DNA of 64,000 nucleotides from Elusimicrobiota bacterium (GCA_022072025.1 JAJVIP010000002.1:349356-413355); one strand, 5' to 3'; counted from the first letter of the stretch, positions 1 to 46,372 are shown. The notes: generated from the letters alone by a model not told the origin. Program-made: numbers and translations.

Positions 1-417
1 TTGACGGCGCCTGATGGAGAAAAACTTGATCTGAAACCAATTTCAGAAACCAGCGGCGTGTTCGTCACCGAATTTAAACCTGAAGTGTTGGGCATTCACA
101 GAGCGCAAGTGTGGGTGAAAAGAGCCGGAAAGCGGTTTGGAGGGGATTCTTTAAACGTGAGAGTCATTGAAAACCTCCAAGAAGAAGACGATTTGAGTTC
201 CCATTTTGATTTGATGAGGGACATGGCCCGAGTAACTGGAGGAAAATTTGTCACCTTGGATGAATTTACCCCCGAACTTTTCACTGAATTCAATCAACAA
301 TCCTCACTGTCCCAAGGGCGTAAGATTCTCTTGTGGAATTCACCCTGGTTTTTGGCGATTCTCTTGGGGTGGCTGATCCTGGAATGGATGATCCGCAAAA
401 AACAGGGGCTGCCATGA
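1..417 (+). CDS. C-terminal part of a membrane protein of the VWA/glutamine-amidotransferase-like type (5' end outside window)
   Basis: Only the last ~138 residues are present; the frame is open at the left edge, so the real start lies upstream. The visible part has a beta-rich stretch (about residues 1-55), a segment with MARVTGGKFVTLDE, and one transmembrane helix at about 116-131, followed by the cytoplasmic tail RKKQGLP. The order 'ATGG + LWNSPWFLAILLG + basic tail' resembles the C-terminus of membrane proteins carrying a VWA or class I GATase-like domain. Such proteins often sit with MoxR, DUF58 and DUF4175-like genes, and a DUF4175-like gene occurs here at 6348. The TGA stop overlaps the ATG of the next gene (ATGA). 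The family call is by resemblance only, because the diagnostic domains are outside the window. Confidence 0.55.
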   Translation: MTAPDGEKLDLKPISETSGVFVTEFKPEVLGIHRAQVWVKRAGKRFGGDSLNVRVIENLQEEDDLSSHFDLMRDMARVTGGKFVTLDEFTPELFTEFNQQSSLSQGRKILLWNSPWFLAILLGWLILEWMIRKKQGLP

Positions 418-2582: not shown

Positions 2583-4690
2583 GTGGGATTTTATTTTTTT
2601 CATTTTTTGTTCTTTATCTCTCCACTGTGGCCCCTCATTTGGCTCCCTATCGTGACGCGGGAGAGATGGCGGCGCTCCTGGGAACGTTGGGGGTGGCGCA
2701 TCCCCCCGGTTACCCGCTCTACACGCTGTTGGGAAGTTTGATCACATGGCTACCGGTTGGCAATCTGGTGTATCGGGTGAATGTATTTTCGGCCTTGTGC
2801 GCGGCGGGAGCCTTGGTGTTTTTATTTCATGCGCTTAGAACGTGGCTCGGCCGTCCCTCCGCCCTTTTGGTCACCTGTTTTTTTGGATTATCGAACCCCT
2901 TCTGGGATTTGGCCACGGTTTCAGAAATGTACACGCTTGGAGTTCTGTGGTTTTGTGCCCTTTTATATGTGACTTTCCGATTAAAAAATCCACTTCTTTT
3001 TTCCTTTCTGATGACGTTGGGTTTGGGTGTTCGAATGGACATGCTTTTGTTGATTCCCCTGTTCCTGGTTTGGTTTTACTTTACGACTCATCAAAAAGAT
3101 TTTCCGCTCATGGGTTTGTTTTTTTCTCTGGGGGCTTCGGTGTTCCTTTACTTGATGGTTCGTTCTCTCAGTGATCCTGTGATTGATTGGGCCAATCCTG
3201 ATCATTTGGCTGCTGTTTTTAATTCTGCGCGGAGAAAAAACTACAGTGGAACATTGGATTTGTTGAGCTTGTCGTATGCCGTCGGAGAAAATTTTTTCAC
3301 GAACCTGAAGATTTATGCCCGGCATATTTTGCAGGTGTTTGGGTGGGCAGGAGCCGCCTTGAGTCTTTACGGATGGGTCGTCGGTTATCGTCGATATAAG
3401 CCGGTTACCATTTTCCTCGCGACTATTTTCCTCGTTACGGGTCCGGTGTTTTTATTTTTGGCCAATATGCCGCCCAATCCGCATTCGCTGGCCATTGTGG
3501 AGGCCTCATATTTATTGCCCGATTTAATGATAGCGATCATGGTGGGTTTTGGTTGGCAGGGAATGACGGGCATCCTTCAAAACAAGGGCCGTTCCTTATT
3601 TATGGGAATTGTGATGGTGGGTTCGTTGACCGTGAATGCGGTCACGGGTTATTGGCGCGCCTCCAAACGTCATAATTTCTATGCGCGAGATTTTGTGGAA
3701 AATGTTTTTAGATCTACACCCAGAGGCGCGGTGGCAGTTTTCCATAAGGATGTTCAATTGTTTTCTTTGTGGTCTGCCCAATTGTTGGACCAAAAAAGGT
3801 TGGACGTTTCGGTGGTGGCGACGGGACTTTCGGGAAGTCCGTGGTATTGGGAGATGAAGCGACGATGGAAAGCCGCTTTGTCTCCTGAAATATCTCTTAA
3901 GGACCCTCAAGGATGGCCGCAGCTTCTTCAGGTATTGGAAGAAAGACCTTTGGTGGCGGGATATGATGTGGAACTCGTGGATTATTCCCGGTTGAAAGTC
4001 TCCCCCAATGGGATGCTCATGAGAGTTCAATTGTCTGATTCAACTTTTGGAAAATCACTTTTTGATATCAACAAATGGGGCCATTTGCTGTCTGACTTCT
4101 GTGTGTATAGAGGGGAATATATTTACGGATCCACACCGGATTTTTTCTCAACTGATTTGATCGGCAATGTGGCGCGGGCGCACCATCAACAGGCTTTTTA
4201 TCTCATGAACCAAAATCATTTCGATCTGGCGGAGACGTTTTTCCGCCGCTCGGAAAAATTTGATCCAACTTTTTCACGCGCCACCAGTGATCGAGCCTAT
4301 TTGGCTTTTCGTCGAGGGAATATTCAATTGGCGGCCTTCCTTTATGAAGAAGCCACTCGAAAAGCCCTTCAAACCCTCACTTGGGCCTTTGAATTCAAAA
4401 GTTTGCCGGAGGTGCTGAGAGGATGCCAGATAGAGGCTGCTTCGCTCACCACCCAGTGGGGGGCCATGATGGAGCGGTTGGGGAAAATGGGTGAAGCACG
4501 GCGTTTGTACGTGAGAGCCAATGAAATTTTTGAGTTGGCCCAAGCGCATTACAATTTGGCCGTTTCCTATTGGGAAAAAGATTGGGGTTTGGTGGTTCGT
4601 CACATGCAAAGAGCATTGGAGTTGAACCCTCAGATGCAGGAGGCCAAAAAATTCTTGGCCAGAGCGGAATATATGCAGGGGAAAAAGTGA
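2579..4690 (+). CDS. DUF2723 membrane glycosyltransferase-like protein with C-terminal TPRs (second copy)
   Basis: A 703-residue paralogue-like neighbour of the preceding gene. DUF2723 motifs appear as YRDAGEM (about 24-30) and HPPGYPLY (about 41-48), followed by about ten membrane helices and a C-terminal TPR region from about residue 534 (HQQAFYLMNQNHFDLAETFF and later helices). It probably acts as a GT-C fold enzyme on the outer face of the inner membrane; the acceptor is unknown. The ATG overlaps the previous stop by 4 bases (ATGA), indicating coupled translation. Unlike its neighbour it carries no repeat insertion between the corresponding helices. Two adjacent but divergent DUF2723 genes suggest an old duplication or two acceptor specificities. 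Confidence 0.85.
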   Translation: MSGILFFSFFVLYLSTVAPHLAPYRDAGEMAALLGTLGVAHPPGYPLYTLLGSLITWLPVGNLVYRVNVFSALCAAGALVFLFHALRTWLGRPSALLVTCFFGLSNPFWDLATVSEMYTLGVLWFCALLYVTFRLKNPLLFSFLMTLGLGVRMDMLLLIPLFLVWFYFTTHQKDFPLMGLFFSLGASVFLYLMVRSLSDPVIDWANPDHLAAVFNSARRKNYSGTLDLLSLSYAVGENFFTNLKIYARHILQVFGWAGAALSLYGWVVGYRRYKPVTIFLATIFLVTGPVFLFLANMPPNPHSLAIVEASYLLPDLMIAIMVGFGWQGMTGILQNKGRSLFMGIVMVGSLTVNAVTGYWRASKRHNFYARDFVENVFRSTPRGAVAVFHKDVQLFSLWSAQLLDQKRLDVSVVATGLSGSPWYWEMKRRWKAALSPEISLKDPQGWPQLLQVLEERPLVAGYDVELVDYSRLKVSPNGMLMRVQLSDSTFGKSLFDINKWGHLLSDFCVYRGEYIYGSTPDFFSTDLIGNVARAHHQQAFYLMNQNHFDLAETFFRRSEKFDPTFSRATSDRAYLAFRRGNIQLAAFLYEEATRKALQTLTWAFEFKSLPEVLRGCQIEAASLTTQWGAMMERLGKMGEARRLYVRANEIFELAQAHYNLAVSYWEKDWGLVVRHMQRALELNPQMQEAKKFLARAEYMQGKK

Positions 4691-6351
4691 CTCCTCCTAA
4701 TATTCCGCTTGAACAGCCAACCTCCCTGACAGGAGGACGTGGGGGGGGCTTTCAGTTTCTACACCCACAGGGGCCTGTGTTTTTTATGGTCTTTGCTCTC
4801 ATTCTTTTGACTGTTCATGTTTTTTTGGCCAAACCGGCCATCACCACCTTTTCACCCACATATGATGAGCCCGTTCACTTAACCGCGGGATGGGCCTATC
4901 TGAAGGCGGGGGAGTTCAGATACAACGGCTACCATCACCCGCCCTTTGGAGAAATGTGGGCTGCTCTTCCTCTTTTAAGGCTTAACCCCTTTTTGCCCGC
5001 TCATCACCCGGCTTGGATCAAACAAACATGGTCAGCGCATGACCAATATCAGTTCGCTGACGTGTTTTTTTACAAGAATCGGGTGCCGGGGGACAAAATG
5101 CTTTTCTCGGCCCGATGGATGCAGGTGGTTTTGTCTTGTCTTTTGGGACTTTGGTTGATGGGGGTTGCTCTCTGGATGGGGGGGCGGACCGTATCATTTT
5201 TAACCGGCATATTTTGGGCTCTTTCTCCCACCTTTTTATCTCATGGAACAATTGTTTCCACAGACTTGGCTTTTGCCTTTTTTTTCTTTGGGTATTTTTC
5301 TTGTTTGTGGCGTTTGGGGCACAAGCCATTTGATTTATTGGCCGGGGTTTTTTTAGGGCTTGCTTTCGCAAGTAAATATTTTGCGTTGAGTGTTGTTCCC
5401 ATCACAATTGTGGCACTTGTTTTGATCCCTTCTCTTCGAAAAAAATATTCATCGTGGATCATTATTTTTGGAATGAGCTTTTTGGTTTTGTGTTTGGTGT
5501 ATCAATTTTCGGGACTGGAGGTGTTTGTTGAAGGTTTCTCCCGCATATTTGCCCGCTCGCAAACTGGCCGCGCCAGCTTTTTTTGGGGAGAACAAGGAAC
5601 ACAGGGATGGTTGCTTTATTTTCCAGCATTGTTCGTCTTAAAAACGCCTCTTCCCCTTTTGATGGCCAGCCTTGTTGCGGTGGTCCAAACCCTTCGGAGA
5701 AAAATGCCTCAAGGGGTCATGCTCCTTTGGATACCGGTGATTTTTTTCTTTGGGGCGGCCTGTTTCTCAAAAGTTCAAATAGGGCACCGGCATATTCTCG
5801 CGATCTATCCCTTTTTATTTGTGTTGGCGGGTATGGGAATCCAATCTCTATTGGGAGGAAGAGTTTGGATAACCCTTCCGTTTTTCATTTGGATGTTGGT
5901 TCAAACTTGGGCGGTGAGGCCCCATTATCTGGCCTATTTCAATGAGTTGATCGGCGGACCCTCCCAAGGGTACCGATATTTCACGGATTCCAATGTGGAT
6001 TGGGGGCAAGGGTTAAAACAATTGGCGGACGCGTTAACAGAAGAAGAAAAGAAAGAAGGTATTTTTCTTAACTATTTTGGGGTGGCGGACCCGCATGCCT
6101 ATGGCATTCGTTATTTGGATGTGGGATCGGAAAAAATTGTTCCCCGTGAAGATGATACGGCCAGGGATCTCTCTCCCACAACCTTGGCTATTTCTGTCAC
6201 CCAGCTTCAAGGTACGTATTACGCCGATCCAACGGTTTTTTCATGGTTGAAAAAATATGAACCCGTTAAAAAGGTGGCCCACAGTATATTTGTCTATGAT
6301 TTCTCCCATTATCCGGAGGCATTGGAACAATTGAGGCGGCTTCGCTCATGA
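4687..6351 (+). CDS. GT39/PMT-like polytopic glycosyltransferase
   Basis: A 554-residue membrane protein. The acidic motif PTYDEPVH (about residue 57-64) after the first helix, and HHPPFGE soon after, fit the first periplasmic loop of GT-C glycosyltransferases (family 39 superfamily), where Asp-Glu binds metal and the lipid-linked donor. A later NVDWGQGL motif (about 434) recurs in uncharacterised bacterial members as far as I recall. The GTG start at 4687 overlaps the upstream stop (GTGA) and has AGGGG just before it; a longer reading frame extends into the upstream gene and is unlikely to be used. It is the third consecutive extracytoplasmic glycosyltransferase-like gene in this operon, followed with ATGA overlap by the DUF4175-like gene. 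Donor and acceptor are unknown. Confidence 0.75.
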   Translation: MTPPNIPLEQPTSLTGGRGGGFQFLHPQGPVFFMVFALILLTVHVFLAKPAITTFSPTYDEPVHLTAGWAYLKAGEFRYNGYHHPPFGEMWAALPLLRLNPFLPAHHPAWIKQTWSAHDQYQFADVFFYKNRVPGDKMLFSARWMQVVLSCLLGLWLMGVALWMGGRTVSFLTGIFWALSPTFLSHGTIVSTDLAFAFFFFGYFSCLWRLGHKPFDLLAGVFLGLAFASKYFALSVVPITIVALVLIPSLRKKYSSWIIIFGMSFLVLCLVYQFSGLEVFVEGFSRIFARSQTGRASFFWGEQGTQGWLLYFPALFVLKTPLPLLMASLVAVVQTLRRKMPQGVMLLWIPVIFFFGAACFSKVQIGHRHILAIYPFLFVLAGMGIQSLLGGRVWITLPFFIWMLVQTWAVRPHYLAYFNELIGGPSQGYRYFTDSNVDWGQGLKQLADALTEEEKKEGIFLNYFGVADPHAYGIRYLDVGSEKIVPREDDTARDLSPTTLAISVTQLQGTYYADPTVFSWLKKYEPVKKVAHSIFVYDFSHYPEALEQLRRLRS

Positions 6352-11077: not shown

Positions 11078-14000
11078 TTACGCGGCTTTTCTGAATTTTT
11101 GGGATATGTTTTCGAGTTCAGTCCGTAATTCATGTTTTTCATTTTGAACTCGCCGCAGTTGTTCGTCCATGATGCTTTGTTGCCTCATGAATTCCGCGGT
11201 GATCACCTCAACTCGTTTGGTGAGATCATGTCTAGCATCCTCGAGTTCTTTGTTTCGGACTTGAGATTCAGCGACCAAGCGATCGTATTCGGTCTTTTGA
11301 TTTTCAAGTTGGAGTTGCTTGTTGTGAAGATCAGACATTGTTTTCTCCACTTGAACCGTCATCTCGTGTTGTTTTTGGAGATATTTTCTTTGGAGCTCCT
11401 CTTCTTTTTGCGCGAATGACGCCTGAACTTCATTCATCCGGGCCATCAGTTTCATGCGCATCTCCGTGGCTTCCTCCAGCCATTGTTGGCGGGAAGTTGC
11501 AAATTCCGCTTCTTTTTCAGCCATTTGCTTTCTCGCTTTCTCAGCGATTTCGTTGACGCGCGTCTCAAACCGAGAAGGCCATTCAATCTCAACATTCTTT
11601 TTATATTCCTCAAATTCTTTTTCCCGTTGATTTAGCGCCGCCATGAGGGCCTCTTCTTTTTTTCGATAGGAATCTCGGAGCATATCCGACTCTTCTTGGG
11701 CTCTTAATTTGGTTGACTCCAGGGTGTGAAGGGTCTCTTCATGTTCCTTGGCCCAACGCGCTTTTTGGGCTTCGACTTGCTGCATACGCGCCACATTTTC
11801 TTTTTCAAGCCGATCCAGATCGCTTCGGTATCGTTTCTCAAGGTTGTCGAGCGCCATTTGTTTTTCAGCGGCGATTTTCTGGCGGGCATTTTCTTCTTCT
11901 TCCATCTTCTTTTGCAAGCGAGCATTTCTTTCCTGCCAGAGGCTCTCTTGTTCAGCCGCTCGATTGCGAAGGGTCTCTTCCATTTGTTGATACATGGTAC
12001 GGTGTTCGTCCTCAATCTTCTTCTTCATTTCTTCCGAAATTACTTGAAGCCGGTGTTTTTCCTGTTCGAGACTTATCTCAAAGGCTTTCCTTTCTTGACT
12101 CAGTTTTTGGAAGGCTTCTTGTTTTTCCATCGCGATTTGTTGCTGTTTTTCTCTGAGTTCAGCCTCCTTTTCCTGAACTTCTTGAAGCAAGGATTTTTTT
12201 AGTTCTTGAAAAGCCTTTTCTCGTTCAGCCTCTTTTTGTTCTGAAATGGCTTCGAGTTCTTGAGCGCGTTTTTTCCACATGGATTCCAATTCCCCGGCCA
12301 GCGCGCGGTGCGATTGTTCGGCTTTCATTTCCCAATTTTTTTGTTCCATTGAAATTCGCGATCGAAGGTCTTTTTCGAATTTCTCCATCTGTTCTGTATC
12401 TCGAAGCATAGTATCCTCCCAGGCTTTCTTATTCTGCTGAAATTGTTGATGCATTTCTCTCTCCACCGTCGCGAGTCTTTCCTCTTCTTGTCGAGAATGA
12501 AGTTTCAATGCTTCCTCTTTCATTTTAAGGGCCGCCATGTCGGCGTCCATTTGCGCTTTTCTTTTTTCCCATTCGGCATGCTCTCTTTGCAGCAATTGAT
12601 GCTTTTCGTGATAGGCCCGTTCAAGTTCCAATTGCTTGCTTTCCGTCATGCGGGCCAGTTGCTTCCTCTCTTCCTCAGTTATTTGTTCCAGTTCTTCGGT
12701 CCGTTTCTTTAACCTCTCTTCAACTTCGGCGGTTCGTCGACGGAAGGAGTCTTCAAATTGGGCTTCTAAATCTCGCTTTTCATTGACCAGCTTGGCGTGT
12801 AACTCGTTTTCGGCTAAAGCCAAACGATTTTTCTCATCATTGACAAATTTGTTGAATGTTTCTTGTTCCATCTTGAGTTTGTCGCGCAGTTCTTTTTCAA
12901 CCATTTCTATGCGTTGATGATTAAGTTCCTGCTGTTCTTTCATGATTCGGTTTTCGGAGTCGGCCTTGGCCCTGAGCTCTTCTTCCAAGGCTTCTATCCT
13001 TCGTTTTTCAACCTCGGCTTTGTTCTCCAGGATACGTCTTTCATCTTCGAGTTTTTGGATGAGTATGGTTTCTTTCTTTTCCATGTCCTGCCGCAATTGC
13101 TCATGTTCCACATGAAGTCTGTGCCGTTCATGCCCCAAAGATTCAAGGCTGCTGGCTTTGGCCGCTTCCCATTGTTGTTTTTCAAGTAACAACTGAGATT
13201 CTTTTGCTGCATAGGCTTTTTCGAGATTGTTAAATTTATCATCAAACATGCGTTGTCGTTGAGCCAGGTTCTCGTTGTTGAGTTTTTCAAGTTCGGCTTT
13301 CATGGCCATTTCTTTTTCAGCCAAAATCTTTTCTGCTTCCATTAAACGGTCGTTGATGGTGCGGTCTTGTTGGGTCAATTTGAATTTCAAATCATTTTCA
13401 CGATCAATTATTTCTTGTTCTTTTTGTTTCTTAAATTTCTCGAATTGGGCGCGTGATTCTTCAAGCAGCAAACGTTGATTATCCAGGTCAATTTGGGCCC
13501 GTTCTTTTTGATTGTTCCACTCCTGTGTTAATAAAGCGTGACGGTCTTGTTCTTGGGAGATCTTGCTTTCCAGTTCAACTCGACGAACTTGGAATAGTTT
13601 TTCTAAATCATTTTGTTTTTCTCTAAGCAATTCATCCATTCGCGTTTGGAGGCGAATTTGTTCTCTATTTAGCTTGTCACGTGATGTTCGTTCATCATTG
13701 GCCAATTGTTGATATTGAGCGTCTATCTTGGCTTGATGAGCGGTTTTTTCCTCTTCCAGCCGTCGTTGAGATTCGGCCTCCATCATTTCAACTCGTTGGG
13801 ATACTTCTTCGGCCTGTTGCTGAAGAAGAGATTTTTCGTTTTCGACCTTGACCATCAAATCTTTTTCGAGCAATTCCAGTCGATCTTTGTCTTCTCGCAT
13901 CTTTTCCGACCAAATTTTTTGTTCTTGTTCCGCTTTGTCGAGAATTTGTTTCTCCATGTCTTGGAGTTTTTTGTGTTCAGCTTTGAGTTGCGCGTCCCAC

Positions 14001-15910
14001 ATCTCTTTTTCTTGACGTATACGCGACATCACCTCTTGTTGCTCTTTTTGCAGGGCTTCACGTTTTTGTTGAATTTCCAATTCCAATGATTTGCGGTCTT
14101 TATCCAGCGCCCTTTGAATCTCGGCACGTTGGCCTTCCCATTCTTGTCTTTCCATTAATAAGGCATGTTCTTTTTCAGCAAACGTTCGTTCGTTCTCTTT
14201 TTTAAGAGCGTCAAACGTTCGTTCGCGTTGGTCCTCATTTTGTTTAAACGTTGTCTCAAGCAGTTTGGCTCTTTCACTGAGTTGAGTTTCCATGGCTTGG
14301 GTTTGTTTTTGATATTCAGTCGAAAGCTTTGATTCAAACTCACGTTGTTCTTGTCGAATTTTTTCTCTTAAATTGGACTCCAATGCTTGGGTTGATGACA
14401 AGAGCGTGGCTTCCAGTCGCTTGAGTTCCTCTTGTTTGGCGGTGTATTCGGTCTCAAGAGCGGACTGTTTAAGGCCAAATTCCTCAATGAGTTTCTCTCG
14501 TTGCGATTTCTCAAGAGCCACCAATCGTTGACGTTCCAGCTCCATGCGGGTTTCGAATGATTTTCGGTCGGCCTCTGCCGCCGCTGAGACCCGAGCTTTT
14601 TCAACATCCCATTGTTGGCGATCAAGGAATAATCGATTTTCTTTATCTTCAAATATTTTCTCAAGGCTAGTTTTACGGTTCCTGAATTCCTGCTCTCTTT
14701 CCGATTCTTTTTGAGCCGACCGTTGTTCCCATTCTGATTTGACTCGCTCAAAGTCAGCCTCTTTTGCATACCATGAGTCTTTGAGTTCGGTTTCCTTTTT
14801 GGAAAGTTCATCAGAAAGTTTCCGCTGCCGTTCCAGGTGTTCCTGTAAAAGGGCGTGGCCGCGTTCGATGAGTTCCTTTTCAATGGCCTGTTCTTTGAGG
14901 GTTAATTCATGGAACCGCGCCGCGATCTCACGTTGGGCGGCTTCTCTTTCCACTTGGAGGGCATCCAACACCTTTTGCCGGTCGGCCTCAAACTGGGTTT
15001 TTTCAAGTTCAATTTCTCCGATGCGCCTCTGATTGTTCTCTTCCTGCGCCTGCCGTCGAACATTTAATTCTCTTTCTATGGAGAGATTTTTTTCCTGGAG
15101 CTGACGGCGTTCCTTTTCAAAATCTTTTTGCAGTTCCCTTCGACTTTGCTCAATTTCGAGAAGCCATTGCCCGCGTTGTTTCTCGAGTTCGTCCTTTTTA
15201 AGTTGGAAGTGCCGTTCGGCCTCTGCTTCGATGGTCACGCGTTCCCGTTGCATTTGGATCGCGTTTTGATTGAGGCGGTCTTGAACCTCGCGTTCTTTTT
15301 GCATGATCTGTTCTTGAAGCAACGACATGCGGTTGGTGAAATCTTCTTGGATTTGTTTGATCTTTTCGTTGTAGGCGCGTTGAATTTGAGGTTCGAGCCC
15401 CACATTTTTTTCGCGAAGCAGAACGATCTCCTGTTCTTTTTCTCTTACCTGTTGCGCGAGAGCCAAACGTTCTCGGTCCACGCGGGCCAAATTTTCTTCG
15501 GCGCTTTGTAAATTTTCTTCCTGTAGACTTTTGTGCCGCCCAATTTGTAGTAAGTCGTGTTCCAAAGCGGTTATTTTGTCCTGAAGTTGTTTTTTTGCAT
15601 CGGCTTCTTGGGGCGCAAATTTTTTCCACAACTGTTCCATGGAGGCGCCCATGAGTCCGCGATATTCTTCAAGCAACTGGGCTGTTTTGGCTCCGATTTC
15701 TTTTTCGTTGAGAGTGATGGTAGATTGGTGGGCGAGTTCTTTGGAGAGGCGGGATGCTTCTTCTTCTTTGGAGATCAGTCTGTTTTGCATTCGCTGGATT
15801 TCATCATCCAGCTGTCGCATTTTTTCCAGTGACCAACGAAGCGCCAATTTGGCGGTCGAGAGATCTGTGACTTCGTCGGCTTGGTAATTCCTGATATCAT
15901 CCGAGCTCAT
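11078..15910 (-). CDS. Giant (1610 aa) cytoplasmic coiled-coil protein
   Basis: A single uninterrupted minus-strand gene of 1610 residues. The sequence is dominated by Glu, Lys, Gln, Arg, Leu and Ala in heptad-like patterns almost end to end. There is no signal peptide, no transmembrane helix and no Walker A/B motif, so it is not an SMC or Rad50 ATPase. A non-coil head occupies about residues 1-20 (MSSDDIRNYQADEVTDL). A recurring segment of the type '(F/Y)xxKExxLLxxxQxWE' appears at about residues 417, 575, 897 and 1098, indicating growth by internal duplication. If fully helical the rod would be over 200 nm long. It is the only clear minus-strand gene in the window and diverges from the CpXC-domain gene. 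A structural or filament-forming role is inferred; no specific family was recognised. Confidence 0.85.
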   Translation of the reverse strand: MSSDDIRNYQADEVTDLSTAKLALRWSLEKMRQLDDEIQRMQNRLISKEEEASRLSKELAHQSTITLNEKEIGAKTAQLLEEYRGLMGASMEQLWKKFAPQEADAKKQLQDKITALEHDLLQIGRHKSLQEENLQSAEENLARVDRERLALAQQVREKEQEIVLLREKNVGLEPQIQRAYNEKIKQIQEDFTNRMSLLQEQIMQKEREVQDRLNQNAIQMQRERVTIEAEAERHFQLKKDELEKQRGQWLLEIEQSRRELQKDFEKERRQLQEKNLSIERELNVRRQAQEENNQRRIGEIELEKTQFEADRQKVLDALQVEREAAQREIAARFHELTLKEQAIEKELIERGHALLQEHLERQRKLSDELSKKETELKDSWYAKEADFERVKSEWEQRSAQKESEREQEFRNRKTSLEKIFEDKENRLFLDRQQWDVEKARVSAAAEADRKSFETRMELERQRLVALEKSQREKLIEEFGLKQSALETEYTAKQEELKRLEATLLSSTQALESNLREKIRQEQREFESKLSTEYQKQTQAMETQLSERAKLLETTFKQNEDQRERTFDALKKENERTFAEKEHALLMERQEWEGQRAEIQRALDKDRKSLELEIQQKREALQKEQQEVMSRIRQEKEMWDAQLKAEHKKLQDMEKQILDKAEQEQKIWSEKMREDKDRLELLEKDLMVKVENEKSLLQQQAEEVSQRVEMMEAESQRRLEEEKTAHQAKIDAQYQQLANDERTSRDKLNREQIRLQTRMDELLREKQNDLEKLFQVRRVELESKISQEQDRHALLTQEWNNQKERAQIDLDNQRLLLEESRAQFEKFKKQKEQEIIDRENDLKFKLTQQDRTINDRLMEAEKILAEKEMAMKAELEKLNNENLAQRQRMFDDKFNNLEKAYAAKESQLLLEKQQWEAAKASSLESLGHERHRLHVEHEQLRQDMEKKETILIQKLEDERRILENKAEVEKRRIEALEEELRAKADSENRIMKEQQELNHQRIEMVEKELRDKLKMEQETFNKFVNDEKNRLALAENELHAKLVNEKRDLEAQFEDSFRRRTAEVEERLKKRTEELEQITEEERKQLARMTESKQLELERAYHEKHQLLQREHAEWEKRKAQMDADMAALKMKEEALKLHSRQEEERLATVEREMHQQFQQNKKAWEDTMLRDTEQMEKFEKDLRSRISMEQKNWEMKAEQSHRALAGELESMWKKRAQELEAISEQKEAEREKAFQELKKSLLQEVQEKEAELREKQQQIAMEKQEAFQKLSQERKAFEISLEQEKHRLQVISEEMKKKIEDEHRTMYQQMEETLRNRAAEQESLWQERNARLQKKMEEEENARQKIAAEKQMALDNLEKRYRSDLDRLEKENVARMQQVEAQKARWAKEHEETLHTLESTKLRAQEESDMLRDSYRKKEEALMAALNQREKEFEEYKKNVEIEWPSRFETRVNEIAEKARKQMAEKEAEFATSRQQWLEEATEMRMKLMARMNEVQASFAQKEEELQRKYLQKQHEMTVQVEKTMSDLHNKQLQLENQKTEYDRLVAESQVRNKELEDARHDLTKRVEVITAEFMRQQSIMDEQLRRVQNEKHELRTELENISQKFRKAA

Positions 15911-35890: not shown

Positions 35891-36520
35891 GCGGCTTTGG
35901 CCCCATTGGAAGTATGTTTTGGGAGTTACTGGAGGACTGGGTTCAGGAAAATCAACGGTTCTCGATATGTTCAGAAAGAAGGGGGCATGGGCGGTGGATG
36001 CTGATGCCATCGTTCATCAATATCTTCGTGATCCCCATGTTCTAAGTGAAATTCAAAAAAAAATTGAAACGTCGGTTTTGATGAAAGATGGTTCTCTCAA
36101 TCGAAAGGCCTTGGCTCAGATCGTTTTTGGTTCAATTAAAAAAAGGAGAGTTTTGGAGAAAATATTGCACCCGCTGGTTCGTGATTCCATATTTAAAACA
36201 TTGAAGACTCCCCGATGCGAATTTGTGGTGATAGATATCCCACTCCTCTATGAATCCAACTGGCAAAAGTTTTTTGACGCAATTCTCGTGGTTAATACGA
36301 ATATGAAAAATCGACTGACAAGGCTCAAAAATAAAGGAGTCTCGATTGAGGACGCGAAACGCCGGATAAAAGCGCAGATGAGTTTAAGTGAAAAAGTAAA
36401 ACGAGCGGATTTTGTTATCGACAACAATGAATCCCTCAAGAAAACCAAAAAGCAAGTGGATGAGATTTGGACATCAATTCAAAATCATCTTCCCACCGCA
36501 AACCACCCTGGAGGAAAGTA

Positions 36521-36521
<1 letters not shown>
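35871..36521 (+). CDS. coaE: Dephospho-CoA kinase
   Basis: A 216-residue P-loop kinase catalysing the last step of coenzyme A synthesis (3'-phosphorylation of dephospho-CoA). The Walker [10 protein letters not shown] is preceded by [19 protein letters not shown], the IDIPLLYES motif and [21 protein letters not shown] complete the family pattern. ATG 35871 lies within the end of the rhomboid gene and leaves a short basic N-terminal extension ([14 protein letters not shown]) before the usual start. The stop overlaps the rho start (TAATG). Confidence 0.93.
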
Positions 36522-38020
<1,499 letters not shown>

Positions 38021-38252: not shown

Positions 38253-40859
38253 ATGAAGAGATCTAGGATTTTCTCAAAACATCAGGAGGGGCTTTCTTTA
38301 ATTGAATTGTTGATGGCCATCTCTATCTTCATGATAGTAGGACTCTCGGTTCTGGGCTTTGTAAAAAACTACTCTATCTCGGCAGTCGTCAATTCTGATA
38401 GGGCCAATGCCAATCAATTAATTCGTCAAATTCAAAATGAACTTCGGGATCAACCTTTTAATACCGTTCCTGACAATTCCCCCTATACATGGACGCGACA
38501 GAAGTTTAATGCCACAGCCACCGTTGGAGCTATTGATTCAGAAAATGTAGCGAATGTTGATGTGGTGGTTACATGGCCAGATCATCGGGGCCAAACGAAA
38601 ACGCTCACCAGTTCATTCAAATTAACAGACGAAGGAGATGATGATCAAGCCTCCGGAAAAATATGGGCGGAGGCCTTGGATGCGGATAATAATCAAGGAA
38701 TTCCGGGATATATGTTTTGTGCGGTTCCCCATGTTCTTCAGGTTAATCCCGATATCAGCTATCGCGTTTTGGCCCGAACATGTATCGAAACCGATGCCAA
38801 TGGAAAGGCTTTTTTTAAGAATTTGCAACAAGGAACTTGGTTCATCATTCCCATGGGGCGCCCTGGAGATTATCTCAGTGGTTTGATGCCAGATATCCCT
38901 GAACCTTACTTGGGAACATGGAATCCCGCTGATGAAGCATACCCCGCGGTGGTGCGCCACTACGACTATGATTTTTTGGATGAAAGTTTTGCAACAGGAA
39001 ACAATTGGCAAACAGATCATGCCAAGAGAAAAGAAGTGGCGGCCGCCTATTCGACTCAAAACATGGATAACTATGTGCCTTCTGGAAATTTGCCTTATCC
39101 CAACACTCTTTTTGAGGTGGAAGAAGGAAAAACCTATAACGAAGAACACCCCCAAAGCGAATGGGACAAACCTAATAATGAAGATGGAACTTTGGTTTTT
39201 AGAATTAAAAAGGCCGGAAGTATTGGTGGAATTGTCGGATTGGCCTCACCTGATCTAACGACCTACACCGGGGGAGATTATGGTATCCCCTATCTAGAAT
39301 CTCTCCCTCAAGCGTATTACGTTGGCCTTCCAGGGTACACAGACAGGAATACAATTATAGCGGAAGAATTATTATCAACCACTCTGGTACCTTTCAAATT
39401 AAATTTATCTACCTATTTGGGGCAAGAATATTACGGGATTATGTTCGGTAATACGGCAAAACATATGAGGACTCCTCCTTTCCCTGAGGGAAATTTGAAC
39501 AAGCAGTATGCCTACCCCGCTCCAACCTCCCCTTTTTTTAGACGTAAAGCCAGCCCAACCGGAGGGCCTGCCGGGCATTGGATTATCAGAGCTTCGCATG
39601 GGGCTTTGGCCCAACCCGCTGGTTACGGAACAAAACTCTATAAACCTACTTCCTATACCCCTGGTGGTTTGGCATTGACGGTGACATTGCCGTTCACAGG
39701 CCCTGGTGGCGTGCTAAAAAATCATGTGCTTGTTAATGGATATGTGCAAAATACGTTTGATTACGCATTTCATAACTTACTGTTACCGGCAGGACAACAT
39801 GTCCAGTATGATTGGGTTTTGGTCCCCATTGAAGCCCTGGCCGACATCACTCTCGTCAACGATCAAGGTCTTGATTTTAAAGTGGACTACACTGGATACG
39901 ATACCACGAATGGGGTGTTGACATATCAAACTGTGAGTGGAACTGGAGGAACAGTTACCACTGTCCCTTATAAAAATGTTATTCCCAGCGGATCGGGTGC
40001 AGATCTAAAAACATTTACTGCGACACCCACGACACTTGTGATCGCTGGAACACCAAAACATATTAATTTGACCGGGACTGTTGATCAAATAGATTTCGGT
40101 TTCCCAAGGTATCGGGTCCCGTGGTCCAATGGAACTCTCACCATGAATATCCCCGATGCTGTGGGATCGTCTACATTTTCTTTCACCCCAAATCCTATTA
40201 GTGCCAATCCCAATGTTAGGGTGGACCAAACTTATATTCCAAAGGTGTTTACAGAATATATCCAGCCAAATGCGCATACAACTTTTCCAAGTTTTAATTT
40301 TGATACCGATGATGCTACATCAGCATATGCCATTTTTTCGCATGGGGTTTACATAGATGAAGAGTATTCTCATGCAATAAAAAAAAGTGGTTTAACTTGG
40401 ACCGTAGACACCATCACCATGATAAAGAAATTTACGGCACATGTGACTGTTCGTGTCACGCATGGCGGTGGAAACATCGTCTTCCCTGGTGCCGGTGTTC
40501 AAGTTCTATCAAGCAAAGGGGGATTGGCTCCCGTAGATTTAGGAGTGACCGATGCGAATGGGGAGGCTGCAGGTTATGTTGATTTTTATTTAACTTCGAC
40601 AGGCAGGGATGTAATGGCAATAGTAACGGATGGTTGTGTGACAACTCCGGGGATTGAGGGTTCCATAACTTCTTTAACCACAACCAATTTGATCATTGTT
40701 GATAATATGTGGACTTGCGGACCTGGGAGTAGCAGCAGTTCCTCGAGTTCGAGTGGTAGTTCAAGTTCTTCGAGTTCCTCGTCAACCAGTAGTTCGAGTT
40801 CATCGACTGGCCCATGCTGCCCGATTGGGGTAGTTGGATGCTCGGGACCTCCGTGTTGA
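38253..40859 (+). CDS. Large pseudopilin-like protein with Ser-rich and Cys-rich C-terminal tail
   Basis: An 868-residue protein that begins as a type IV prepilin: a basic leader (MKRSRIFSKHQEG), cleavage after Gly13, then LSLIELLMAISIFMIVGLS with Glu at +5. The rest is extracellular. There is a short pilin-like head, a segment resembling carboxypeptidase-regulatory/Ig-like modules (about 130-200), a long beta-rich aromatic middle, and an Ig-like C-terminal domain (AHVTVRVTHGGGN and VQVLSSKGGLAPVDLG, about 730-800). A ~27-residue Ser tract with few Gly/Thr (40728-40808) is followed by a tail with Cys-Cys, Cys and Cys. Typical minor pilins are below 300 residues, so this is a fusion of a filament-insertion domain with a surface module, perhaps tip-located. 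First gene of the cluster between rho and rpmE. Confidence 0.8.
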   Translation: MKRSRIFSKHQEGLSLIELLMAISIFMIVGLSVLGFVKNYSISAVVNSDRANANQLIRQIQNELRDQPFNTVPDNSPYTWTRQKFNATATVGAIDSENVANVDVVVTWPDHRGQTKTLTSSFKLTDEGDDDQASGKIWAEALDADNNQGIPGYMFCAVPHVLQVNPDISYRVLARTCIETDANGKAFFKNLQQGTWFIIPMGRPGDYLSGLMPDIPEPYLGTWNPADEAYPAVVRHYDYDFLDESFATGNNWQTDHAKRKEVAAAYSTQNMDNYVPSGNLPYPNTLFEVEEGKTYNEEHPQSEWDKPNNEDGTLVFRIKKAGSIGGIVGLASPDLTTYTGGDYGIPYLESLPQAYYVGLPGYTDRNTIIAEELLSTTLVPFKLNLSTYLGQEYYGIMFGNTAKHMRTPPFPEGNLNKQYAYPAPTSPFFRRKASPTGGPAGHWIIRASHGALAQPAGYGTKLYKPTSYTPGGLALTVTLPFTGPGGVLKNHVLVNGYVQNTFDYAFHNLLLPAGQHVQYDWVLVPIEALADITLVNDQGLDFKVDYTGYDTTNGVLTYQTVSGTGGTVTTVPYKNVIPSGSGADLKTFTATPTTLVIAGTPKHINLTGTVDQIDFGFPRYRVPWSNGTLTMNIPDAVGSSTFSFTPNPISANPNVRVDQTYIPKVFTEYIQPNAHTTFPSFNFDTDDATSAYAIFSHGVYIDEEYSHAIKKSGLTWTVDTITMIKKFTAHVTVRVTHGGGNIVFPGAGVQVLSSKGGLAPVDLGVTDANGEAAGYVDFYLTSTGRDVMAIVTDGCVTTPGIEGSITSLTTTNLIIVDNMWTCGPGSSSSSSSSSGSSSSSSSSSTSSSSSSTGPCCPIGVVGCSGPPC

Positions 40860-41497
40860 GGTTTGAACCATGGAGGGGGAAGCGGGGTCAAGGGATGACT
40901 CTGATGGAGACAATTCTCGTGGTTGTCATCTTAGGAATTGCTTCGGTCATAACGATGAAAAATATGGAATTGTTTAAAGCCCTGATTTTTCAAAACATTC
41001 ACGGTTCCCAAATGGCCAAAATTCACGAAGTGAACAATGAAATTCAGGCCACGGTTCGGGGGGCTCAAAGGATATTGTTGGTTTCCCACGATAGGCTTGA
41101 ACTGATTGTCTACAATGATCAATTCAAACCTCAGTTGGGAGCTTTGCCCGCTAATTGGAATTTAGATCGGCGTTGGGTAGAACAAAATCGAAAAGTGGTT
41201 TATAGATATGATGGGAGTCAAGCGATTCCTCGAATAATAAGAGAAATCTATGCCGCTGCCAACTATGCCGTCACACCGCTCAACTATTCTGTTCTTCTGA
41301 GTAATAAGGAACTCTACAAAAACGAATATTTGGTTGCCCCCGCTCCGGGTAATGAGGCCATGTTTAAGGAATTGTTTGTGTCCATGGGAGGAAGAATTGG
41401 GGGGGTGGCCATCGAAATTAGAGTTCTCTCCCCAATGTTCAAAACGATCCGGACTCCCTATCCAGTAGAGGCCGTTCTATATGGTCGTGAGTTTTAA
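40853..41497 (+). CDS. Prepilin-like protein (minor pseudopilin)
   Basis: A 214-residue protein with a prepilin N-terminus: basic leader ending GKRGQG, cleavage site before MTLMETILVVVILGIASV, with Glu at +5 of the mature form. The C-terminal ~170 residues are a soluble head of unassigned fold. The start is not fixed: GTG 40853 or TTG 40856 (the latter overlapping the previous stop as TTGA) gives a ~14-residue leader, while ATG 40838 would give a longer one. It is coupled to the large pseudopilin upstream and overlaps the next gene by 17 bases. Likely part of the same filament or secretion assembly. Confidence 0.72.
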   Translation: MLRFEPWRGKRGQGMTLMETILVVVILGIASVITMKNMELFKALIFQNIHGSQMAKIHEVNNEIQATVRGAQRILLVSHDRLELIVYNDQFKPQLGALPANWNLDRRWVEQNRKVVYRYDGSQAIPRIIREIYAAANYAVTPLNYSVLLSNKELYKNEYLVAPAPGNEAMFKELFVSMGGRIGGVAIEIRVLSPMFKTIRTPYPVEAVLYGREF

Positions 41498-43025
41498 ATC
41501 TAATAATAAAAAAGGTTTTTTTCTGGGGGGGGCCCTTTTATTTTCAGTGATATGTATTGGTTTTATAGCGGCTATTGTTTCACTTAACGCGTCCGCAGCA
41601 AAACTTATTAATTCCCAAGTGATCCGCGATCGGCTTCACCGAACCGTCTACGACGCTTATACCATGACCTTGGCAAAAATCGCCTCCGGAACCACTATAA
41701 ATGGGACCCTCATTCAATCTTTGGGAGGGGCTTCATTTGGAACCAGTATAATTTCAGGCTCAAACAGCTATTCTCAATATCAGGTGAAGACAGCTGCCCT
41801 TGAAAATTTTGGTGGGGATCTGAAAGATGTTAATGGTTTGGATGGGTGCGCTTTACTCTATATTGAAGCGGAAAACCTTAAACCCAACACATCAACAATA
41901 AATAAAACAAAGGGCATTGCGGTTGTCCAAGTCGCCAATGCAGGAAGGTTTTTTGTGGCTTGTCAAACATCATGGGGAATTGGTCCGAATTTCGTATCAA
42001 CGGAAGCAGATATATATGCACGGGATGTTTCGATTTGGGCCAATGGTTTAATTAAGCCTTCTGTAAACCGAATTTTTTATTTTAATCGCGCCATTTCATT
42101 TGATTTAAATGTGCCCTATCCGAATTCCCCAATAGAAGAAGTTGATGGGACCTCTTCCAATAGGTTTTTTACCAGTGATGTGGCCGGGACGGGATATGTA
42201 AATCAATTGTCGGCCGAACCTATTTTCCCTCAATTGACGGCTCAAAAGATGAATGATTATAAAACTATGGCCCAGTCAGTGTTAGGAGGGGCGGCCTATT
42301 ATGCCGGCAATGCCGTATTTCCGGATGATATCCCTGTTGGAAAATGGAAAAGTGGAAATGAAATATATCCTCCGGGTTGCACAGACAGAACTTGTTCGAA
42401 CATAACCGCAAATGCTGGGACGGCGAATGCCGAGCTCGCAAAACATATTTATTTTATTGAGGGAGATTTAACCATTCATGGAATTGTTTATGGGCAGGTG
42501 TTATTTGTCGCCAATGGAAAAATAATTGTTAATGGTGATTTAATAAGTGATTCTTTGGCAGGAAATCCGGCAACACGAGATAATGATAATCCATTAAATC
42601 CATATCCTGGTTGTACTTCCCCTTGTAAAGCCGATAAAAATCAGAACGCAACATATCCCAATGGGTCCAATGCCCATCAAATTGGCCTAATAACCACCTC
42701 TGTTATTGGGGTTCAAGTGGATAACCACGCGACTGAGGCCAACAGAACTATTTTTGGAACTGGAACGACATTGGAACTCGAAGCTTTAATAATGGCTCCC
42801 AATGGAAGTTATTCCGTAACTGATCCAACCAGTGGGTCGCCTGTCATTGACTATATTTTTTTGGGGGGCTTCATTATCAGAAACTCCCCCAATGAGAGTG
42901 GAAGGGTTCAGGCGCCCGCTGGCGTAACAAATTATTACAACTATATGGTTTCCTTAAGAGATAGGCCGCTCCCATTTTTACCTGGATTTACACAAACTCT
43001 GATTTGGTATGAAACTGGGGAATAA
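41481..43025 (+). CDS. PilX/GspK-like large pseudopilin component
   Basis: A 514-residue protein. A short basic leader ends KKG and a hydrophobic helix FFLGGALLFSVICIGFIAAIV follows. The +5 Glu of major pilins is replaced by Gly, as can occur in tip components of the GspK/PilX kind. The long extracellular part is beta-rich with Asn/Gly/Thr and several Cys (for example PPGCTDRTCSN and PGCTSPCKAD). A segment HIYFIEGDLTIHGIVYGQ with VLFVANGKIIVNGDLIS looks like a short parallel beta-helix or 'prepilin-type processing' surface repeat. The ATG at 41481 overlaps the preceding gene by 17 bases; GTG 41487 is an alternative. Third consecutive pilin-like gene, followed by a PMT gene. Confidence 0.65.
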   Translation: MVVSFKSNNKKGFFLGGALLFSVICIGFIAAIVSLNASAAKLINSQVIRDRLHRTVYDAYTMTLAKIASGTTINGTLIQSLGGASFGTSIISGSNSYSQYQVKTAALENFGGDLKDVNGLDGCALLYIEAENLKPNTSTINKTKGIAVVQVANAGRFFVACQTSWGIGPNFVSTEADIYARDVSIWANGLIKPSVNRIFYFNRAISFDLNVPYPNSPIEEVDGTSSNRFFTSDVAGTGYVNQLSAEPIFPQLTAQKMNDYKTMAQSVLGGAAYYAGNAVFPDDIPVGKWKSGNEIYPPGCTDRTCSNITANAGTANAELAKHIYFIEGDLTIHGIVYGQVLFVANGKIIVNGDLISDSLAGNPATRDNDNPLNPYPGCTSPCKADKNQNATYPNGSNAHQIGLITTSVIGVQVDNHATEANRTIFGTGTTLELEALIMAPNGSYSVTDPTSGSPVIDYIFLGGFIIRNSPNESGRVQAPAGVTNYYNYMVSLRDRPLPFLPGFTQTLIWYETGE

Positions 43026-43054
43026 AAGAATTCCCGGATTTAATAAGTCCTTGC

Positions 43055-44569
43055 ATGATAAAGCTAAATCTTTCCCTCCTCGTCAACGATAATAGAATTT
43101 CAAAATATTTTTTCTTGATCCTCGTTTTTTTCATAGGTTTTTGGACATATTTTTTTGGGTATTGGAACCCACATCAGGCATTTTGGGATGAAAATTACTA
43201 TCTCCCTTTGGCGCAAAAGTATCTGCATGGAATATTCTTTATGGAGCATCATCCTCCTCTCGGGAAACTTCTGATTGCCTTGGGGGAGAAAATCATTAAT
43301 CCCAATCAATCGTACGATCAATTTCTGGATATTGCGTATGCGAGTAGGTTTCCAAATAATTTTTCATTTTTTGGCTATCGGTTTTTCCCTGTCCTGTTGG
43401 GTTGGTTAACCGTACCACTTGTTTTTCTAATATTTCTTCAACTATTAAAAAACCCTTTTTGGTCGTTTTGTTTAAGTTCAATGTACTTATTTGATAATGC
43501 GCTCATCGTATTTTGTCGAGGCGCTATGATTGAGGGGTCTCTGATTTTTTGGTTTGTTGCTGTTCTTTGGCAATACTTTCTGCTGGAAGAACGACCTTCC
43601 TTTGCTGCTCGTTGGCCTGCTGTAATTTATGGAGTCACGTTTGCTTTCCTCGTTTTAACCAAGATCACCGGGTTAATATTAGCGCCACTAGTTTTTTCCC
43701 TTCTTTGGCAGTGGAGATTTGATTCCTCTCGGACGAAGGCATTTTTGCTTCGTTTTACATTCGGATTTTTGGCAGCTTATTCATGTGTGTGGTGTTTCCA
43801 TTTCTCTATATTAAAAAATGTTCGGCCTTCATTAAAAAATCAAGGATATTATATGGCATCAAATAGTTATCGAACTTGGTTGGATAATAAGCAAACCGGA
43901 AATCCATTTAATCATCCTGTAATGTTTCTTGACTCTATCAAGTTTATTCGATCCGACAATGCTGGAATTCCCAAACTAAATCTTTGTAAGGCAAGAGAGG
44001 ATGGAAGTCCTTTTTTTATGTGGCCACTTGGAGGCCGTGCGATAAATATGAGATGGGAAACACCTGACGGAAAAATATTTAAGTACCTTTATTTACAATG
44101 TAATCCCGCGATTTGGTTTGTTTTATTGGCTGGTATTATTGTGGCTTCAGCCTTCTGGATCGTCTCTGTGCTGGTCCCAGGATTTACATTTGCCTCCAAA
44201 AGTCGGATAGGTATCCTATTGTTGTTATATTTCGCTTATATGGTTGTTATGTCGCAAATATCTAGGGTTATGTATCTTTATCACTATTTTCCAACTCTCT
44301 TAATCTCTTTTGTTATTTTTGGACTGTGTTTTATGGATATTCAACAAATTGGTCGATTTCAGTTAACGGACAGCCGGAAAAATAAAATCGCTTTTGGTTT
44401 GTTTATGATCAATTTTTGTTCATTTCTCTATTATGCTCCCTTAACTTATTATCTGCCAATAACTGATGCTCAAATGGAACGTCGAGCTTGGTTTCCATTA
44501 TGGAACCTTCATAGCGTTAAGGCGGGGAACAATGGGTATCTTGTAGCACCCTGTCAGGATGAAAAATAA
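43055..44569 (+). CDS. PMT-family O-mannosyltransferase-like membrane protein
   Basis: A 504-residue polytopic protein with about eleven helices. The first extracytoplasmic loop has AFWDENYYLPLAQKYLHG and then EHHPPLGKLLIALGE. This is the diagnostic DE plus HPPLGK pattern of the PMT (protein O-mannosyltransferase, GT39) family, which moves mannose from polyprenyl-phosphate to Ser/Thr of exported proteins. The gene looks more AT-rich than the housekeeping genes around it. It follows three pilin-like genes by 29 bases, and the first of these ends in a Ser-rich tract, a natural acceptor. The C-terminus is a short soluble tail. Confidence 0.82.
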   Translation: MIKLNLSLLVNDNRISKYFFLILVFFIGFWTYFFGYWNPHQAFWDENYYLPLAQKYLHGIFFMEHHPPLGKLLIALGEKIINPNQSYDQFLDIAYASRFPNNFSFFGYRFFPVLLGWLTVPLVFLIFLQLLKNPFWSFCLSSMYLFDNALIVFCRGAMIEGSLIFWFVAVLWQYFLLEERPSFAARWPAVIYGVTFAFLVLTKITGLILAPLVFSLLWQWRFDSSRTKAFLLRFTFGFLAAYSCVWCFHFSILKNVRPSLKNQGYYMASNSYRTWLDNKQTGNPFNHPVMFLDSIKFIRSDNAGIPKLNLCKAREDGSPFFMWPLGGRAINMRWETPDGKIFKYLYLQCNPAIWFVLLAGIIVASAFWIVSVLVPGFTFASKSRIGILLLLYFAYMVVMSQISRVMYLYHYFPTLLISFVIFGLCFMDIQQIGRFQLTDSRKNKIAFGLFMINFCSFLYYAPLTYYLPITDAQMERRAWFPLWNLHSVKAGNNGYLVAPCQDEK

Positions 44570-44630: not shown

Positions 44631-44951
44631 ATGAAAACAGATATTCACCCCAAATACGAACTCTCGACGATAAAGTGCGCTTGTGGCAATGAATTTGTCA
44701 CACGGTCAACGGTTTCTTTGATCAAAGTTGATATTTGTTCGAATTGCCATCCCTTTTATACCGGTCAACAAAAACTCATTGATGCCGCTGGACGAGTGGA
44801 ACGGTTTGGAAAACGTTTCGCTAAAACCGAAGGTAAAACGATTGTTCGCAAAGCCATGGTTCAGAAGAAAATAGCCAAGGCTCTCCCCAAAAACACCGGA
44901 AAAAAAGTTCTCTCCTCTACCCCCGTCGCAAAAAAGAAAAAGGATAAGTAG
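44631..44951 (+). CDS. rpmE: Ribosomal protein bL31 with basic C-terminal extension
   Basis: A 106-residue protein. The N-terminal ~65 residues are bL31 of the zinc-binding type: [17 protein letters not shown] (first Cys pair), [10 protein letters not shown] (second pair), then [10 protein letters not shown]. The last ~40 residues are Lys-rich and low complexity, an extension over the usual ~70-residue bL31. The ATG at 44631 gives the standard N-terminus; a TTG at 44610 is upstream and unlikely. Weak promoter-like boxes TTGTTC (44589-44594) and TATACA (44613-44618) lie just before it, which would give a very short leader. rpmE heads the conserved rpmE-prfA-prmC-murA order. Confidence 0.93.
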
Positions 44952-46143: not shown

Positions 46144-46207
46144 TTAAACTCCAAATCACAAGTCTCAAACTCTAAACTCGAAACAAACTTAAAACAGAGC
46201 AGAGACA
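46144..46207. repeat. 64-bp direct repeat, copy 1
   Basis: Begins TTAAACTCCAAATCACAAG and ends GAGCAGAGACA. It is identical to 46309-46372. It is AT-rich and built of short CAAACTC/AAACTCG-like sub-motifs. No target duplication or transposase is visible. Confidence 0.9.
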
Positions 46208-46308: not shown

Positions 46309-46372
46309 TTAAACTCCAAATCACAAGTCTCAAACTCTAAACTCGAAACAAACTTAAAACAGAGCAGAGACA
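46309..46372. repeat. 64-bp direct repeat, copy 2
   Basis: Identical to 46144-46207. It ends 16 bases before the prmC start, so it forms part of the prmC leader and may influence its translation. Confidence 0.9.

Follow-up and report, generated by a model that had tools for sequence, protein, structure and literature searches.

A polyserine-tailed giant pseudopilin and a PMT-family O-mannosyltransferase in one inserted gene block of an Elusimicrobiota bacterium

Introduction

Can a protein O-mannosyltransferase serve the tip of a bacterial pilus? This question is raised by four consecutive genes within a 64,000-nucleotide stretch of DNA (hereafter the window) from an Elusimicrobiota bacterium (GCA_022072025.1, JAJVIP010000002.1:349356-413355; genome G000). 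The genes encode three pilin-like proteins, denoted V, W and X, and a PMT-family enzyme (Table 1). An initial annotation had proposed that together they suggest a surface filament whose giant tip subunit, V, is O-mannosylated in a serine (Ser) stalk, with a cysteine (Cys)-rich tail displayed beyond it. We consider the block to be best explained as a mobile operon for minor pilins at the tip of a type IV pilus, plus a horizontally gained PMT, with the Ser tail of V as the best acceptor candidate, and assign this explanation a probability of roughly 0.45.

The inserted block and the Ser tail of V

In the sister genera G001 and G002, rpmE directly follows rho, and in G000 the four-gene block sits between them as one insertion. 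The start of W (GTG at 40853) overlaps the stop of V, the start of X overlaps the end of W, and the PMT gene begins 29 nucleotides past the end of X on the same strand, an arrangement in which all four genes may be co-transcribed. The coordinates, lengths (868, 214 and 514 residues) and order of the three pilin-like proteins were correct in the initial annotation, as was the 29-base spacing to a PMT-family enzyme, with which the PF02366, PF16192 and yeast Pmt matches agree. Direct repeats and mobile-element scars were looked for at the insertion edges and none were found, and promoter and terminator scans at the block gave matches at chance level only.

V carries a prepilin signal of class III with Glu5 present (EG^LSLIE), and matches the N_methyl family PF07963 at 22.1 bits (cut-off 21.2). 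The reported tract of about 27 residues and its Cys-rich tip were confirmed, with 24 Ser, 2 Thr and 1 Gly in the 27 residues and 4 Cys in the 16 residues of the C-terminal tail, GPCCPIGVVGCSGPPC. All six Ser codons are used in mixed order, and the tract is therefore not a simple DNA repeat. It is also far beyond compositional expectation, as the richest 30-residue segment of V holds 24 Ser, compared with a maximum of 11 across 2000 shuffles of V. A 14-codon pattern search of G000 detected this tract as the sole Ser run of its kind; genome-wide counts here and below rest on searches rather than full annotation.

Table 1. Features of the inserted block and its flanking genes (positions in the window)
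Feature	Position	Strand	Basis
V, giant PilV/GspI-like pseudopilin, 868 residues	38253-40859	+	PF07963 over cut-off; long passenger ending in Ser tail and Cys tip
Ser tract of V, residues 826-852	40728-40808	+	Codon reading, shuffle test
Cys-rich last 16 residues of V, GPCCPIGVVGCSGPPC	40809-40856	+	
W, PilW/GspJ-position pseudopilin, 214 residues, GTG start	40853-41497	+	TIGR02532 over cut-off
X, PilX/GspK-position protein, 514 residues	41481-43025	+	No Glu5 in anchor; orthologous proteins in three sister genera
PMT-family O-mannosyltransferase (GT-C, GT39-like), 504 residues	43055-44569	+	PF02366, PF16192
rho, left flank of inserted block	36467-38020	+	
rpmE, encoding ribosomal protein L31, right flank of inserted block	44631-44951	+	

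Elsewhere in the window, a perfect 64-nucleotide direct repeat (46144-46207 and 46309-46372) lies between prfA and prmC, these being its only two copies in the window, and a 1610-residue coiled-coil-like protein is encoded on the minus strand (11078-15910).

The V-W-X trio and the type IV pilus

W also carries a prepilin signal with Glu5 (QG^MTLME) and matches TIGR02532 at 18.6 bits (cut-off 16.3), its N_methyl match of 17 bits being under the cut-off. The N-terminus of X (KKG^FFLGGALL) lacks Glu5 and profile searches with X returned zero family matches; it can be called pilin-like only by its position, its N-terminal anchor and its orthologues. In GspI-J-K and PilV-W-X sets, Glu5 is found in the first two positions and is missing from X/K, a pattern that the V-W-X order of the window fits, since V and W have Glu5 and X lacks it. 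Because none of the three proteins scores above the cut-off of any curated PilV/W/X or GspI/J/K model, they are named here as 'like' these sets.

G000 also contains a separate and complete type IV pilus cluster (L039) with PilB and PilT ATPases, PilC, a major pilin, PilD, MNOP-like genes and a secretin. V, W and X would be synthesized either as prepilins of class III, to be processed by the prepilin peptidase of the genome, or as pilin-like membrane proteins, and probably cap the pilus built by this pilB-pilT-pilC-pilA-pilD-pilMNOPQ cluster. V would then present a large exposed passenger, followed by the Ser stalk and the Cys tip. A low-abundance role at the tip would be expected from the likeness to PilV-PilW-PilX(-PilY1) and GspI-J-K sets, which extends to three consecutive genes with the same distribution of Glu5. 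Unlike those sets, the window has a V several times the usual size of PilV, no PilY1 gene in the block, and a PMT gene following. The PilY1 profile (PF05567) found no match even in the control genomes, and the absence of PilY1 is therefore uninformative.

Large domains on pilins have precedents. ComZ of Thermus thermophilus carries a large domain on a pilin scaffold and is best placed at the tip (PMC6561018), and PilB of Streptococcus sanguinis is described as a modular pilin with an adhesion role (PMC8179133). V resembles them in having a large domain added to the pilin scaffold. To our knowledge, a Ser stalk with a Cys tip has not been reported for modular pilins of the ComZ or PilB type.

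Other genes within the L039 cluster may concern pilin modification. A 664-residue membrane protein with a weak LIC_10190 match is encoded immediately before the major pilin gene (L039:5652-7646), and a GT2 and LPG_synthase_TM pair immediately after the secretin gene (L039:13709-15572); it is possible that these form a second pilin glycosylation set.

The PMT enzyme and its origin

Judged by its sequence, the window enzyme is a true member of the PMT family. The catalytic domain PF02366 matches at 94.9 bits (cut-off 22.7) and the C-terminal module PF16192, of four transmembrane segments, at 56 bits (cut-off 32.4), and the relatives of solved structure found by phmmer are yeast Pmt2 (5e-12), Pmt4 and Pmt1. 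No MIR domain was found in the enzyme. Alignment of its catalytic columns with 30 relatives, and with yeast Pmt2, showed that it keeps D45-E46 in the first external loop, HPPLGK at 66-71, R109, and R404-V-M-Y407 (Rx2Y) in the fifth loop. It thereby resembles known GT39 enzymes (yeast Pmt1/2/4, MtPMT Rv1002c of Mycobacterium tuberculosis, and Pmt of Streptomyces and Corynebacterium) in PF02366 plus PF16192, the DE pair, HPPLGK and Rx2Y, and differs from them in its second acid and in belonging to a clade of Patescibacteria and Bacteriovoracaceae. An Rx4E motif at 155-160 places Glu160 in the second-catalytic-acid column of the second loop, where MtPMT has Asp176. The corresponding residues of MtPMT, D74, D176, R441 and Y444, are all required for its activity (PMC12331936). 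As Glu is common at this column in the enzyme's own clade (e.g. L052, L053, L055) and in others, Glu160 need not mean that the enzyme is dead.

Fourteen GT2 proteins in G000 could provide the donor. Further GT-C enzymes with PMT-like domains are present in G000, two TMEM260-like proteins of the window among them, and other mannosyltransferases for exported proteins are therefore possible. The TMEM260-like pair (window 333-2582 and 2579-4690) matches PF11028 at 55 and 73 bits (cut-off 24.2), has TPR tails and is followed by a PMT_2-type protein at about 4594-6351, all three being candidate protein mannosyltransferases.

PF16192 was matched above its cut-off in 4 of 341 genomes of the phylum and 1 of 14 control genomes, and the window PMT is the sole match in G000. 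It is 37-41% identical to its nearest relatives, in Patescibacteria and Bacteriovoracaceae, and about 23% identical to other PMTs of Elusimicrobiota. In a tree of 31 PMTs it falls apart from the latter, in a group with 100/100 support made up of Parcubacteria, another Patescibacteria genome, one Bacteriovoracaceae genome and one unclassified genome; the branches are long and the order within this group is unsure. The guanine-plus-cytosine (GC) content of the PMT gene, 0.374, is the lowest among 96 sampled open reading frames (median 0.466) and close to that of its relatives in Patescibacteria and Bacteriovoracaceae (0.34-0.38). The presence of the PMT is most simply explained by horizontal transfer, either into the operon or together with it.

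A contig search with the single PMT as query gave 0 matches, and one with a four-sequence alignment gave 56 relatives, the loci of which were surveyed for neighbouring genes. Several of these contigs are short, and one (L055) ends inside the PMT gene. A pilin match near the PMT of L091 was judged to be a false match of the search expression, and the expectation of pilins beside the remaining PF16192 loci in the class was rejected, since other genes adjoin them. In G323, a genome of the same phylum, giant proteins with linkers rich in Ser, Thr, Pro and Ala surround a PMT that belongs to another clade. At L048:2-19003, such a PMT lies between exported-looking proteins of 2216 and 2192 residues, which have repeats as well as N-terminal linkers rich in Ser/Ala or Pro/Thr.

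Related trios

Orthologues of X were found by blastp in three sister genera (G001, 8e-15; G002, 4e-9; G003, 7e-9), at other chromosomal sites than the window block. V was seen whole in G001 only, the G002 contig holding W and X and that of G003 part of X. The complete G001 trio (V 955, W 196 and X 461 residues) has neither a Ser tail on V nor a PMT, and an Ig/cadherin-type exported protein takes the place of the PMT downstream. The sister-genus trio at L143:6704-17000, in V-W-X order, has an Ig/cadherin protein downstream, and two large GT-C-looking proteins with multiple transmembrane segments and no family match are encoded upstream on the same strand.

G000 itself contains two further trios, at L036:9129-13658, in V-W-X order, and L037:6651-12159, in X-V-W order. 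One (C17) encodes proteins of 876, 167 and 468 residues and the other (C27) an X of 434, a V of 1076 and a W of 332; the X proteins of neither are close to the window X, and one of the V proteins carries CarboxypepD_reg and SpaA-type domains. Giant tip trios are thus ordinary in this Elusimicrobiota family, and it is the PMT and the Ser tail that set the window trio apart.

Discussion

If the PMT and the trio work together, V would be anchored in the inner membrane, its C-terminus facing the periplasm, while the enzyme acts. The PMT would transfer mannose, supplied by a polyprenyl-phosphate donor, to Ser/Thr residues of exported proteins, most probably the partner pilins, with the Ser tail of V as the best candidate. 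A link between PMT and tail is favoured because both are unique and adjacent in G000, they came as one insertion, and the G001 trio lacks both; the PMT among giant proteins with Ser/Thr/Pro/Ala-rich linkers in G323 also counts in its favour. That tail and PMT occur together at a single locus only is suggestive; we put the chance of a functional link just short of even, and mannosylation of the tail is possible. The initial proposal is supported in part: the V-W-X order fits a tip set and a true PMT lies in the same block, but relatives give no confirmation of the mannosylated stalk. A more far-reaching version, a type IV pilus with a giant tip pseudopilin whose O-mannosylated polyserine stalk and Cys-rich tip are made through a dedicated PMT of the same operon, is less likely than not.

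Several observations weigh against the explanation that we prefer. The initial annotation had looked to co-occurrence in related genomes, and the three sister genera with X orthologues have no PF16192 enzyme; likewise, the two further giant trios of G000 have no PMT and no Ser tail. PMT genes occur without pseudopilins at the four closest and 52 more distant loci, where no pilin lies within up to 8 kb on contigs of which several are short, and an 18-of-30 test found no Ser/Thr-rich neighbour at the four closest. Genes for membrane proteins often have low GC, so the composition of the PMT gene is a weak sign of transfer. The D176E variant of MtPMT is almost inactive, keeping little activity, and MtPMT acceptors are proline-rich, with Thr and Ser near proline being modified (PMC12331936); the V tract contains no proline. 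In class members where no PF16192 enzyme was detected, some exported proteins have Ser/Thr tracts about as long. Structure prediction, which had been suggested for V, gave no support past the N-terminal helix: the mean predicted local distance difference test (pLDDT) of single-sequence AlphaFold models was 33.6 for V and 32.4 for X, and V has no sequence match to any solved structure.

In the strongest alternative, the PMT was gained by chance beside the pilin operon, as a passenger or as an enzyme of general function that mannosylates other exported proteins or takes part in envelope glycan assembly, and the Ser tail of V is an unmodified flexible linker. The nearest PMTs adjoin other genes, with a GT2 directly upstream and no pilins in L052 and L053. 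The tract-bearing loci that were read encode HlyD-like and LysM/TPR-type exported proteins, none of them pilins, in class members where PF16192 was not found, which shows that such tracts need no PMT. The Ser-codon pattern behind these loci, run over 231 genomes of the class, is too unspecific for counts, most matches in GC-rich genomes not being Ser tracts; its control mirrors the opposite strand, and the loci read are those of family f10 and a few others. In Saccharophagus, polyserine runs are established as simple linkers between the domains of exported enzymes (PMC2386152). The tract of V is like the linkers of Saccharophagus, Microbulbifer and Cellvibrio in being a long Ser run in an exported protein, and unlike them in lying at the extreme C-terminus of a pseudopilin with only a 16-residue Cys tail after it. 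Against a passenger or general enzyme, tract and PMT are unique and adjacent in G000, the whole block is one insertion, and a gene present by chance need not sit 29 nucleotides past X on the same strand. We regard this alternative as a serious minority possibility.

A different question is whether the trio forms the tip of a type II secretion pseudopilus (GspI-J-K) rather than of a type IV pilus, which would be compatible with any role of the PMT. V has a weak match to the GspI model TIGR01707 (15.8 bits, below the cut-off of 44.35) and W a weak one to GspG. However, no family-specific Gsp match reaches its cut-off, and the L039 cluster resembles type IVa pili in encoding a major pilin, a second ATPase similar to PilT, and PilM-like and PilNOP-like proteins, so a secretion pseudopilus is unlikely. 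Least likely is that the PMT acts on the partner pilins mainly at Thr/Ser in the passenger part of V, or in X, and not on the tail, since the sister trios are similar in Ser/Thr content without a PMT, even though V as a whole is 10.0% Thr and 8.2% Ser and has, outside its tail, sites near proline of the kind targeted by MtPMT (PMC12331936).

The preferred explanation, a minor-pilin tip operon with an acquired PMT, may be compared with pilin O-glycosylation by PglL, PilO and TfpW. The likeness lies in a membrane glycosyltransferase for pilins, putative in the case of the window. Some enzymes of the PglL/PilO/TfpW type are encoded beside a pilin gene. They belong to another enzyme family, however, and the well-known cases modify the major pilin, whereas the window PMT adjoins minor pilins.

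If the PMT does modify the tail of V, a eukaryote-like O-mannosylation enzyme would be tied to pilus tips in a phylum that is largely uncultured and has been little studied. Bacterial PMTs would gain a defined acceptor outside the Actinobacteria, and this would possibly be the first PMT-modified pilus tip and a role for PMT outside that group. Even if the PMT spares the tail of V, the locus shows that mobile V-W-X tip operons of giant size are frequent in this Elusimicrobiota family, and that PMT genes cross phyla.

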